Below are positions 46,993-50,450 of a stretch of 64,000 nt of DNA, one piece after another. Both the position numbers and the translations under genes were made by a program. The notes beneath the pieces were generated by a model, which had not been told where the DNA came from, did not search any database, and saw only the letters and a program-made list of their open reading frames with translations. The DNA is from Rhizobium pisi (GTDB lineage: Bacteria > Pseudomonadota > Alphaproteobacteria > Rhizobiales > Rhizobiaceae), in assembly GCF_003938655.1 (NCBI RefSeq), contig NZ_RJJT01000002.1, positions 186,001-250,000 on the forward strand. The letters run 5' to 3'. The stretch's first letter is position 1. Each line of letters begins with the position of its first letter.

Positions 46993-47205
46993 TTAAGAAA
47001 TCAGCGAATGACGTCTCGCATTGGCAAGAAGATCGCGAAGCGATGCCTCTGGCCCATAGAGCATCAGCAGGCGATTTTCCTCGCGTTTGGCGAGGCGATA
47101 TCGTCGGGCGAATTCGAAGACGCTCCACAATTGATCGCTGGCCGCCGGCCTTTCCGCATCAATGTTCGTTGCTTCCTGAGATCGAGCCATGGCGACGATC
47201 CTCAT
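46993..47205 (-). CDS. Small protein (70 residues), unknown function
   Basis: A 70-residue gene whose ATG overlaps the stop of the FMN reductase gene (ATGA). A second ATG at 47190 is possible. The sequence (RYRLAKREENRLLMLYGPEASLRDLLANARR) looks helical and soluble; no domain recognised. Confidence 0.62.
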   Translation of the reverse strand: MRIVAMARSQEATNIDAERPAASDQLWSVFEFARRYRLAKREENRLLMLYGPEASLRDLLANARRHSLIS

Positions 47206-47762
47206 TCGGCAGCCGCCAGCGCCGGGTTTGCGCCCGGGAAGAAGGCTCTCAATTCGCCGATCACTTCACTGATGCGGCTCGAAAGCGGTTCGGATGCAAC
47301 CGCATAATCCTGGAAGTCACGATCGGACGCATAAACAGCGGTTGGCAGCGTGTGAGCCATGAAAAACCCGAACAGCGGCCGAAGCTGGTGCTCGACCATC
47401 AAGGCATGTCGGTCACCGCCGCCTGTCGCCGTGATGATGATCGGCTTGCCTCGAAGCTCATGCGGATCGATCAGGTCGATCAGGTGCTTGAAAAGACCGG
47501 GATAGGAACCCTTGTAGGTCGGCGAGCCGATGATCAGGGCGTCGGCCTGCACGATCTCGCCGACGACACGCCTGGCCTGCTCGTCGAGGTCCTTGCGCCA
47601 TAAGGCGCTGCCCAGCGACGGACCGAAATCGTGCAGATCATAGGTCTTGCTGGCAAAGCCGTATCGGATGCTTGCGCGTTCGGCGACGTGGCGCACAAGC
47701 GCCAATGTTTTCGAAGGACGGTTGAAGCTGCCAGCAATGCCGACGAGTTTGAAACCTGACAT
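47202..47762 (-). CDS. NADPH-dependent FMN reductase (MsuE/SsuE-like)
   Basis: A 186-residue flavodoxin-fold reductase that supplies FMNH2 to two-component monooxygenases. It opens MSGFKLVGIAGSFNRPSKT; GSPTYKGSYPGLFKHLIDL and TATGGGDRHALMVEHQLRPLFGFF are typical of MsuE/SsuE. First gene of a leftward unit with three small genes and two more. It could serve the LLM enzymes of the 52160-61201 operon, which has no reductase of its own. An element resembling that operon's operator lies 33 nt upstream. Confidence 0.9.
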   Translation of the reverse strand: MSGFKLVGIAGSFNRPSKTLALVRHVAERASIRYGFASKTYDLHDFGPSLGSALWRKDLDEQARRVVGEIVQADALIIGSPTYKGSYPGLFKHLIDLIDPHELRGKPIIITATGGGDRHALMVEHQLRPLFGFFMAHTLPTAVYASDRDFQDYAVASEPLSSRISEVIGELRAFFPGANPALAAAE

Positions 47763-47794
47763 GGTTTTTCCTCTCTTTGGATTGCTCAACTATT

Positions 47795-47984: not shown

Positions 47985-48690
47985 AAAGACCGCAATCAGA
48001 ACGACGCTCTACCGCATGAGATCTGGTCAGTGGGTGGACAGTGACGCTGCCCTCAGACGCGTATCCTTCGGGCATTCGCCGAACGCACTGAAAAGGCTCT
48101 AAAACCATTCTGCAACGCACGAAGCGAGACCCCGACGGCCTCTGCAACCATTGTGATCGTGAACGGTTCGCTGATGTTTGCGTGCATGTAGTCGATAGCG
48201 CGCCGAACATGCCAAGGGGCGATTGCCGATACTTTTTGTCCCAAATACTCAGTAAAAGATGCTGGGTAAACCGGAGGATAAGGTCCGACATCGCTTCGCT
48301 CAGCAAGGAAAGACCGACAGGCGATGACAGGAGAGGACCGTTGTTGCGCATGCCCTGCATGATTGTCCCCACCAGGTTGCCAATGATCTGACCCGCTGGA
48401 CTTGTGAGATCGAGAACCGGTTCAAGATCAAGCGACTCCAGAACTGGTTTCTCCAAAAGGGCCGAAATCGTGCGTTCACGATGCTCCAATCGAGACACAG
48501 AATCGTGCCTTTTCGTTGAACCTCGGCGCCCACGAAAAAGTTCGATCCTTCGTCAACGGCTGCGCTCCGATGAGCCCATAACTCGTCGAATATGAATGAA
48601 CCATCGACTCGAAGTCGTTTCCTTGATGAGTCGGAGAAAAACGGAACACAAGACGTCTGACGACTTATGAAGTCAGATGCTGCTGTCGTC
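47985..48690 (-). pseudogene. AraC-family regulator pseudogene (multiple frameshifts)
   Basis: Pieces of one AraC-type regulator appear in different frames of the minus strand: an N-terminal piece ending FFVGAEVQRK (near 48520), then SRLEHRERTISALLEKPVLESLDLEPVLDLTSPAG...HLLLSIWDKKYRQ (48500-48225), then APWHVRRAIDYMHANISEPFTITMVAEAVGVSLRALQNGFRAF (48220-48085), the first HTH. After that the reading is lost and only scraps of a C-terminus remain. At least two indels and a stop separate them. It was probably a regulator with an AraC-binding-like domain, divergent from the msuE-like unit or nearby genes. Confidence 0.75.
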
Positions 48691-48941: not shown

Positions 48942-49124
48942 ATGCCATTGCAGACGGCTGATGTCATCGATTTCCAGGCTTACCGGCAGTCGCGCAGCAA
49001 ACATGCTGATGTGGTTCAAGCGACCGCACCGGTATCATTTGCAATGCAGCCAGTCCTGATGTGGGTGCCGTATTGGGGTTTCGTCCCCGTCATGGCAATG
49101 GGCACTCCGGGATATGGGGTCTGA
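48942..49124 (+). CDS. Small protein (60 residues), unknown function
   Basis: A 60-residue gene with GCGGGAG before the ATG. The first half is polar, the second half is hydrophobic and Met/Trp/Pro-rich (MQPVLMWVPYWGFVPVMAMGTPGYG). No signal peptide. It overlaps the XRE-cupin regulator gene by 11 nt and is probably co-transcribed. No family recognised. Confidence 0.65.
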   Translation: MPLQTADVIDFQAYRQSRSKHADVVQATAPVSFAMQPVLMWVPYWGFVPVMAMGTPGYGV

Positions 49125-49734
49125 TCAAGCGCTTCTCTCGGACGGCGAAGCCAGAGATACCGCCGAGGAGATCACGGTTCAAACAGGACAAAATTTGCGG
49201 CGCATCCGTACCCGGCGCGGCTATTCCCTGGACAGGCTGGCAAAGATCGCCGGCGTGAGCCGTGCGATGCTCGGCCAGATCGAGACGGGCAAAAGCAGCC
49301 CGACATTAAGCATTCTCTCGAAGATCGCGCTTGCTCTAGGCATTCCCTGCGCCGCTCTGATCGCCGAACGCGGCGAGAGCCCGGTCATCGCCGTGCCCAG
49401 GGCAAGATCGAAAATTCTCTCCTCCTCCGAGGGGCGCTTTCGGACACGGGCTCTTTTCCCCTTCGAAGGCGAGCGGAAGGTGGAATTCTACGAGCTCAGG
49501 ATCGCTCCGCACCATACCGAAAACGCCGACGCCCATCAGCACGGAACGGTTGAGAATCTGGTCGTTGCTCAAGGCACCGTCGAAATCATCGCCGGCAAGC
49601 AATCGCCGCATATCCTGGGTGAAGGCGACGCCATCATCTTCGACGCAGATGTACCCCATATCTATCGCAACATGACGGGAACGGAAGCGATCCTCTACCT
49701 GGTGACGACCTATCTCGAAGACGTTCGCGCATGA
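49114..49734 (+). CDS. XRE-family regulator with C-terminal cupin (SutR/YdcN-like)
   Basis: A 206-residue regulator. The XRE helix-turn-helix spans about residues 27-82 (RRIRTRRGYSLDRLAKIAGVSRAMLGQIETGKSSPTLSILSKIALAL), and a cupin domain follows near 125-200 with HQHGTVENLVV and GDAIIFDADVPHIY. The architecture is that of E. coli SutR (YdcN), which controls sulfur-use genes. Sulfonate, FMN-reductase and S-cysteine genes around it support a sulfur role, but many XRE-cupins regulate other pathways. Convergent with the methionine-rich gene. Confidence 0.88.
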   Translation: MGSDQALLSDGEARDTAEEITVQTGQNLRRIRTRRGYSLDRLAKIAGVSRAMLGQIETGKSSPTLSILSKIALALGIPCAALIAERGESPVIAVPRARSKILSSSEGRFRTRALFPFEGERKVEFYELRIAPHHTENADAHQHGTVENLVVAQGTVEIIAGKQSPHILGEGDAIIFDADVPHIYRNMTGTEAILYLVTTYLEDVRA

Positions 49735-49737
49735 CGC

Positions 49738-49764
49738 AAAAGAGCCCCCGTCTCCGGAGGCTCT
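49738..49764 (-). terminator. Stem-loop terminator between XRE-cupin and methionine-rich genes
   Basis: On the minus strand AGAGCC...GGCTCT forms a GC-rich stem followed by TTTT, a typical terminator for the methionine-rich gene; the same hairpin lies 4 nt after the XRE-cupin stop and may act there too. Confidence 0.65.
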
Positions 49765-49790
49765 CGATCGTTTCCCTGAGGGACGATGGC

Positions 49791-50129
49791 TCAGGCGGCC
49801 ATCATGCAGCACATCATCATGCCGCCGCAGTTCATCATGACGGGCATGCCGCCCGACATCATCGACATCATGCGCTTGCAGCACTCCATGAACATTTCGT
49901 TGTTCATGCCTTCCATCGGCTTCATTTCACAGATCATGCCCTCGGCGGTCATGGTGCACTTCATGGAGCCCATCATCATCATTGGCATGGAGGCCATCAT
50001 CGGCATCATTGCACCCGACATCATGGGCATGCCACCCATCATCGGCATCATTCCGCCCATCATCGGGTTCATCATGGCGGGCATCATGTTGTTCATCATC
50101 GGCATCATGTTCATGGCGGGGTTCATCAT
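49791..50129 (-). CDS. Methionine-rich, cysteine-containing protein (112 residues)
   Basis: A 112-residue protein with 49 Met (44 percent), 7 Cys and no His. The first 60 residues are Met-Pro/Gly/Asn repeats (MMPMM, MMGGMM); the rest carries Cys pairs (MECCKRMM, MMMCCMM) among Met. No signal peptide is evident. The minus strand has a GGAGAG ribosome site; the ATG at 50126 has better spacing than that at 50129. A terminator follows. The antisense reading is a His-rich shadow. It may store sulfur or bind a soft metal such as copper; the sulfur-scavenging context favours the first. I know no characterised homologue. Confidence 0.8.
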   Translation of the reverse strand: MMNPAMNMMPMMNNMMPAMMNPMMGGMMPMMGGMPMMSGAMMPMMASMPMMMMGSMKCTMTAEGMICEMKPMEGMNNEMFMECCKRMMSMMSGGMPVMMNCGGMMMCCMMAA

Positions 50130-50216
50130 CTCTCTCCGGCAGTGGCGTTTCGCGTTTTAATGAGCAGGGAGATAAAAGAACTAATTGCAGCAAACAATGT
50201 AAAAAAATCTTCCCAT
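50126..50216 (-). pseudogene. Homopolymer-interrupted mini-ORF upstream of the methionine-rich gene
   Basis: GGAGGA (50223-50228, minus strand) with ideal spacing precedes ATG at 50216. As written the frame stops after 11 codons (MGRFFYIVCCN) at 50181. The codons pass through a run of seven T (50201-50207). With six T the frame would continue for 29 residues as a hydrophobic peptide (FFTLFAAISSFISLLIK) and end in a TGA that overlaps the methionine-rich start (ATGA). It may be a frameshifted coupled small gene, a phase-variable one, a leader peptide with two Cys codons, or a sequencing error. Confidence 0.45.
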
Positions 50217-50450
50217 ATCTTTTCCTCCAATAGAATGGAGCGGTTTCGATGGGATTGCACAAACTTGCCAAAATAACGGAATTCCGTCCGCTATCATCGA
50301 TCAAGCGGAGCGGCGCTTGCTTCGCCGACGTTCGGGAACGGCAATTCGACTCAGCTCCTGCAAAAGCACAAACGCCGTCGCGCCGGGCGCGACTGACAAC
50401 GGCATTGGCGGCCTGAGTCGGTGACCTTCGGGTGCCTGACGCCGCACCCG
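50217..50450. other. Intergenic region upstream of the methionine-rich unit
   Basis: 234 nt between the mini-ORF start and the end of the desaturase gene. Apart from the ribosome site for the mini-ORF, no gene was supported. It is less AT-rich from 50290 on; the promoter for the leftward methionine-rich unit should lie here. No operator similar to the shared element was found. Confidence 0.35.

Follow-up and report, generated by a model that had tools for sequence, protein, structure and literature searches.

What does a bacterium gain from a small protein in which nearly every second residue is methionine, and which is encoded beside a SutR-like regulator? An open reading frame (ORF) for such a protein lies in the window analysed here, a stretch of 64,000 nucleotides from Rhizobium pisi, and the first-pass annotation of this DNA proposed for it either a store of sulfur or the binding of Cu(I).

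The methionine-rich reading frame is a conserved coding gene

The gene and the elements in its immediate vicinity are as follows:

49791..50129, minus strand: gene for the Met-rich protein, 112 codons plus stop (or 111 from the second ATG, at 50126)
49965..50129, minus strand: variable N-terminal Met/Pro/Gly/Asn repeat, residues 1–55, predicted to be disordered (pLDDT)
49794..49964, minus strand: conserved C-terminal Met/Cys module, residues 56–112, predicted hairpin-helix-hairpin
50130..50137, minus strand: Shine-Dalgarno-like GGAGAGAG immediately 5′ of ATGATG, read from the sequence
49740..49765, no strand: terminator-like hairpin between the convergent Met-rich and regulator genes, from folding

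The ORF count gave 112 residues with 49 Met (44%), 7 Cys and no His, identical to the figures of the first-pass annotation, and its description of a first half with Met-Pro/Gly/Asn repeats and a second half with the cysteines was confirmed as well: residues 1–56 hold 30 Met and no Cys, while residues 57–112 hold 19 Met and all seven Cys. Among the 286 stop-to-stop frames of at least 100 residues in the window, the Met-rich ORF has the highest Met fraction (0.40, counted including the open stretch ahead of the start), and the runner-up, at 0.14, is an antisense frame at the same locus. The ribosome site claimed earlier is there, with GGAGAGAG abutting ATGATG; since the alignment of the relatives begins at the second ATG, the product may have 111 residues. 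As to the claimed hairpin with a T-run, the hairpin stood up to folding (an 11-bp stem, −21.8 kcal/mol, z −4.17 vs. 200 shuffles), whereas the T-run 3′ of it consists of four T only, and the hairpin was missing from the output of the consensus terminator scan.

In the C-terminal module, pN/pS was 0.47 in the Met frame (61 sequences, L037 left out, 1080 pairs) vs. 0.87, 0.90, 0.99, 1.01 and 1.32 in the other five frames, a frame-to-frame contrast that carries no significance level because the sequence pairs are non-independent. The Met-rich ORF is a real conserved coding gene. In two of the three annotated Rhizobium plasmids it is the antisense frame that is annotated, as a hypothetical protein, and in the third it is the Met strand. 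The antisense plus-strand frame was considered as the true gene and rejected, since selection favours the Met frame; the conserved Met-rich gene is thus hidden in two R. leguminosarum plasmids by the annotation of the opposite strand (L061, 7790–8167; L063, 5781–6155). The window counterpart of that antisense frame spans 49786–50160 on the plus strand.

The Met-rich protein matched none of the Pfam-A and NCBIfam families at E 1 or better. A translated search with one genome per species revealed 39 Met-rich loci in Rhizobium, Pararhizobium, Neorhizobium, Shinella, Phyllobacterium, Kaistia, Chelatococcus, Tianweitania, Siculibacillus, Tardiphaga and unclassified Rhizobiales, as well as in metagenome-assembled genomes (MAGs) of Afipia, Magnetospirillum and Pseudomonas. 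Protein searches gave 84 Met-rich relatives at E 0.001, and a profile search gave 259, the best 120 of which were listed; among the relatives are some that carry the names Microvirga, Bradyrhizobium or Devosia. The protein belongs to an unnamed, overlooked conserved family. Two Rfam matches inside the repeat were under the gathering score and were taken as chance.

The distribution of the gene is rare and patchy. With the window's genome included, it is carried by 2 of 385 genomes from across the class, by 6 of 297 from the order and by 4 of 247 from the window's family; another family gave 16 of 248, and one genus 7 of 146. This patchiness, along with the changing neighbours described below, suggests movement of the module or its repeated loss.

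A SutR-like XRE-cupin regulator is the near-constant partner

49114..49734, plus strand: SutR-like XRE-cupin regulator, the convergent partner (HTH_3 and Cupin_2; 34% identity to SutR)
48942..49124, plus strand: ORF of 60 aa that overlaps the start of the regulator gene; its type is conserved, and it is annotated in relatives

The window regulator consists of an N-terminal XRE-type HTH and a C-terminal cupin, with HTH_3 and Cupin_2 both above their cut-offs. Its identity to E. coli SutR is 34% over 160 aa (E 6e-33) vs. 22% to PuuR (E 7e-07), so that the first-pass assignment of a SutR-like neighbour was right, and by sequence comparison the partner is closer to SutR than to E. coli PuuR.

Of the 39 loci, 36 have a convergent XRE-cupin gene next to the Met-rich gene, as do 22 of 24 further ones; as L101 proved to be the same contig as L035, this makes 57 of 62 distinct loci, the window not counted. 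The partner is missing at L005 (a contig end), L019, L104, L111 and L037, where it is absent on the fetched stretch. In the genus of 146 genomes, for which 21 first-look candidates were scored per genome, a close regulator (56–58% identity) occurs in exactly the seven genomes with the Met-rich gene, adjacent to it; the one other match at E 1e-30, 41% identical, belongs to a genome without the gene. On the Rhizobium lentis plasmid p3 (L062, 5656–6728), the incomplete gene table lists no regulator beside the Met-rich gene, and the pair is perhaps decaying there.

The best solved match of the window regulator is Vibrio cholerae 1Y9Q (E 1.2e-22). A paper on Pseudomonas XRE-cupin factors reports D-methionine bound in the cupin pocket of 1Y9Q; the factors studied there repress locally and have palindromic sites, and the signals known for such factors are metabolites from the pathway under their control or its precursors (PMC7901475). 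Elsewhere 1Y9Q is given as a dimer with Zn (PMC2684688), and a palindromic motif from ChIP-exo is given for E. coli YdcN/SutR (PMC8464067). By this homology, the window regulator may sense methionine. The cupin motif HxxGx[VILM]E, common to SutR and 1Y9Q, is present in 42 of 58 regulators, the window's included; this looser motif was counted because the metal motif HxHxxxE occurs in 21 of the 58.

The partner is like SutR (YdcN) and 1Y9Q in its full-length HTH plus cupin architecture and sulfur setting, and is unlike them in being dedicated to a Met-rich gene and in being preceded by the 60-aa ORF, a counterpart of which was detected by motif search ahead of 48 of the 58 regulators. In the window, this ORF has a VIDFQAYR-like start and a hydrophobic, Trp/Pro-rich end. 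Ten regulators have no such ORF ahead of them, among them those at six of the seven loci retrieved from the 146-genome genus, so that there the ORF is either absent or too different for the motif.

Neighbouring genes are enriched in sulfur functions

47202..47789, minus strand: MsuE-type FMN reductase (TIGR03566), the nearest recognised sulfur gene

The first-pass annotation placed the gene inside a sulfur-scavenging region, and this was borne out: MsuE scored 253.5 bits against NCBIfam TIGR03566 (cut-off 212.5), and in an annotated relative of the window block there are genes for TauA, MsuE, an LLM oxidoreductase and a gamma-glutamylcyclotransferase. On one flank of the window module are msuE and, as judged by eye and by that relative's annotation, ABC genes of the taurine type; the other flank has a desaturase, a DsbA-type protein, an LLM oxidoreductase and ABC genes for amino acids. 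Short ORFs at 48053–48498 on the minus strand, between msuE and the module, resemble, by eye, pieces of an AraC-type regulator.

In each of 20 genomes, the seven called genes closest to the module (140 proteins in all) were set against seven from a stretch 60–200 kb off on that contig (136 proteins, once the four longest had been dropped from 140); the 20 genomes include related strains, and the counts are not independent. At E 1e-10, the Pfam family NMT1 was matched by 7 test proteins, Rhodanese by 4, Bac_luciferase by 3, and Sulf_transp, NIL and PALP by 2 each, in every case vs. at most 1 in the control, an upper bound since the ranked control families were already down to single members. 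ABC families are generally commoner near the module (ABC_tran 12 vs. 8, BPD_transp_1 11 vs. 5), so part of the excess is due to transporter genes. With NCBIfam at E 1e-50, where the tallies are blurred by cross-matching among ABC ATPases, SsuA-family matches were found in 4 and MetN in 5 test proteins, with at most 1 each in the control; sulfate-type TIGR00968 matched 6 proteins of the test set and 4 of the control, in which CysA-type NF008105 matched 3. Among ten sulfur-looking neighbours picked, a cystathionine beta-lyase, MetI and an NtaA/DmoA-type monooxygenase were above the cut-off; relatives of cysteine synthase, cystathionine synthase, SsuA, alkanesulfonate monooxygenase, MetQ and, twice, mercaptopyruvate sulfurtransferase were under it. 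The neighbours differ by lineage, yet organosulfur and Met/Cys genes are more frequent among them than in the control stretches. In the loci of the R. rhizogenes group and Kaistia, no sulfur gene was seen nearby by eye. Taken together, the selected composition described below, the near-fixed SutR-like partner and the unrelated sulfur genes around the pair in other lineages strengthen the link to sulfur beyond what a single window can tell.

The neighbourhood also bears on another possible role, that of an oxidant sink, where Met would be oxidised instead of other proteins and then restored by methionine sulfoxide reductases. The very high Met content would suit this role, which has been proposed for MrpX and BcrX and has in them a precedent for a sacrificial Met-rich protein; PMC8315932 describes these as MXKDX-repeat proteins that function in hypochlorite scavenging and are encoded alongside a sulfoxide reductase, in one operon controlled by an ECF sigma factor. 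Both these and the present protein are small, very Met-rich and bacterial, but the latter differs in having a Cys-bearing module and a SutR-like partner, and on reading it has no MXKDX repeats; neither was a signal peptide found in it by eye. Judged by the MsrA profile in 21 genomes, MsrA is encoded in all 21, the nearest same-contig copy being 173 kb away, and no ECF-sigma or reductase operon was noticed beside the Met-rich gene. We regard the oxidant sink as quite improbable.

Composition and predicted structure of the protein

The gene models of 62 members contain 36–48% Met (median 44%), 4–16 Cys per protein (median 7), 0.2% each of Leu and Ile, 3.1% Lys and 1.9% Asp. The free drift of composition between close relatives that would be expected of a non-coding reading was thus not seen; conservation of Met content and position had been put forward as a check, and the Met content is kept, as is, in 57 of 62 distinct loci, the place beside the regulator. 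His is absent from all 62 models. A few metagenomic relatives from the protein search (P0021, P0024, P0049, P0052 and P0077) have some His, and its absence is therefore a strong tendency, not a rule.

The N-terminal repeat varies in length and order even among close relatives, with its composition kept. The conserved module of ~55 residues has the consensus MTCxMTxxGMxCxMMPMxGMxxxMFxECCxRMMxMMxxGMPMMMxCGGMMMMC (42 chosen sequences), in which the Cys columns C3, C12, C29 and C46 are near-invariant. The use of Met at the hydrophobic positions suggests selection on the sulfur-bearing side chain, and the composition is, as judged from the aligned sequences, under selection for sulfur amino acids. 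To protein chemistry, a module with Met at almost all of its hydrophobic positions is something unusual. A Pseudomonas MAG protein (L037, 1947–2459) has two C-terminal modules, and in the R. lentis protein P0004 the C-terminal end has diverged, a further hint that the R. lentis pair is perhaps decaying.

In the AlphaFold2 model of the window protein, pLDDT is below 50 over nearly all of residues 1–52, the block means for residues 51–90 (first hairpin and helix) are 65–79, and the second hairpin has 67 for residues 91–100 and 51 for residues 101–110. The predicted strands 55–61 and 64–70 would set C58 opposite C67, with the register inferred. A fold search of the model returned 157 PDB matches, none of them at E 0.001, and the module sequence had no PDB match at E 1.

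One could imagine the protein as a regulatory partner or gauge, in the sense that the making of a 44% Met protein, or the module itself, would report Met supply to the regulator rather than store sulfur in bulk. The one-to-one pairing with the regulator and the conserved module would fit such a role, but a repeat varying in length and order under a constant composition would not, and the present analysis gave no sign of contact with the regulator, which makes the gauge very improbable.

The main rival is a cytosolic buffer of a soft metal (Cu(I), Ag, Cd or Zn), where the module Cys and nearby Met would form the site. Met and Cys serve as soft ligands in SilE/CusF-type proteins, Csp and metallothioneins, and the present family is alike in this ligand chemistry. 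Because of the conserved Cys columns a metal site is possible, the more so if C58 and C67 are indeed opposed in the predicted hairpin. Unlike those proteins, however, the present family has no His in the 62 models, no PDB match of the module sequence at E 1 or of the fold at E 0.001, and no HMA gene nearby: judged by the HMA domain in 21 genomes, such genes are present in 20, and the nearest one that shares a contig with the Met-rich gene lies 73.6 kb from it. The regulator, moreover, is SutR-like and not of a metal-sensor family. A metal buffer is, on these grounds, unlikely, and the same holds for its further parts, that the tail would add weak sites and that the sulfur setting would reflect thiol supply. 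Of the copper idea in the first-pass annotation, the conserved Cys thus leave room for metal binding, whereas the distance of HMA genes (at least 73.6 kb on the same contig), the missing His of the 62 models and the lack, by eye, of a signal peptide speak against it. If the protein is a metal binder nevertheless, it would represent a new soft-metal family under sulfur-type control.

A candidate sulfur reserve

Since a protein selected for its sulfur content adjoins a methionine-type regulator, a store is the most economical reading, and we give about an even chance to the Met-rich protein serving in the cytoplasm as a sink or reserve of sulfur, controlled by a regulator that responds to methionine. 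Acting as a reserve, the protein would hold reduced sulfur, mainly methionine, in the cytoplasm; its disordered tail would bear most of this sulfur, and the C-terminal module, with its Cys and with Met at hydrophobic positions, would fold, stabilise or address the protein. The cupin of the SutR-like regulator would sense methionine or a related sulfur metabolite, and the regulator would set the level of the Met-rich protein via the conserved promoter element. Upon sulfur shortage, proteolysis would return methionine from the protein.

The gene, its composition, its partner and its sulfur connection are well supported. The sulfur-store idea of the first-pass annotation has accordingly gained in its link to sulfur (selected composition, SutR-like partner, sulfur neighbours), and it is storage and release themselves, as well as the ligand (by homology), the protein that binds the promoter element and the direction of control, that we infer. 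Some observations run against the reserve: the Cys positions of the module are conserved beyond what a plain store would need, some loci (the R. rhizogenes group and Kaistia) have, by eye, no sulfur gene nearby, the promoter element sits where an activator would bind although the studied Pseudomonas XRE-cupin factors repress, no more than 42 of 58 regulators keep the HxxGx[VILM]E motif, and motif searches found no sulfur regulon. The broader proposal, that bacteria own a reserve protein made on ribosomes and dedicated to sulfur, which a methionine-sensing SutR-type regulator of its own keeps at its level and which lies in differing alphaproteobacterial sulfur-scavenging neighbourhoods, is tentative, and we put it somewhat short of an even chance.

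In the accessible parts of the literature on Met-rich proteins, mostly non-subscription, a bacterial sulfur-storage protein of such a kind was not found, and a search on XRE-cupin factors with sulfur gave none either. Plant Met-rich seed storage proteins (zeins, 2S albumins) are eukaryotic, secreted into storage organelles and unrelated in sequence; by analogy, they would share with the present protein the banking of sulfur as protein Met. Such a reserve, if true, would be the sulfur counterpart of the bacterial nitrogen and carbon reserves, would show how a scavenger of scarce organic sulfur banks it, and would offer a one-gene, one-regulator system for testing sulfur banking.

The upstream region bears a conserved element

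50169..50174, minus strand: predicted −10 hexamer TATCTC, 17 nt past the predicted −35, by eye
50192..50197, minus strand: predicted −35 hexamer TTGTTT, with the TTG offset conserved
50221..50240, minus strand: conserved upstream element CTCC-N8-GGAGGAAA (GGAGGAAA at 50221–50228), from comparison of upstream regions
50273..50294, no strand: 22-bp palindrome ATAACGGA-N6-TCCGCTAT, upstream of the promoter element

An exact GGAGGAAA lies 75–150 nt 5′ of the start in 50 of the 62 upstream regions; five of the remaining 12 have it with one change, and seven have none there. Among 29 non-redundant regions, 27 have TTG at an offset of 31 or 32 from GGAGGAAA, in many of them followed, by eye, by a −10-like hexamer ~17 nt beyond, and the conserved element is ~24 nt upstream of the predicted −35. 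By analogy, a position 5′ of the predicted −35 would suit an activator, whereas the studied XRE-cupin factors are repressors. That GGAGGAAA might be the Shine-Dalgarno sequence of a leader peptide looked attractive for some of the Rhizobium regions; this reading was dropped because GC-rich relatives have, by eye, no start codon behind it.

Several lineages have a dyad, TTTCCTCC-N8-GGAGGAAA, with the conserved GGAGGAAA as its right half. The dyad TTCCTCC-N8-GGAGGAA is exact at the Met-rich promoter in four of six genomes searched, and the window's genome has one other exact match (L142). The surroundings were read for four of seven one-mismatch sites: L145 and L148 lie inside ORFs, and L144 and L149 (1501–1522), from two relatives, are orthologous sites flanked by a gene for a PucR-like regulator and a gene divergent from it, so that such a site may serve another regulon too. 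Searches with ATTCTATTGGAGGAAA, with the palindrome and with the dyad (the latter exact or with one mismatch) did not find a sulfur regulon, and with two mismatches the 22-bp palindrome pattern gave genome matches not above the control. ATTCTATTGGAGGAAA and the 22-bp palindrome each have one exact place in the genome, at the Met-rich promoter, and sequences related to the palindrome were seen by eye in other Rhizobium upstream regions.
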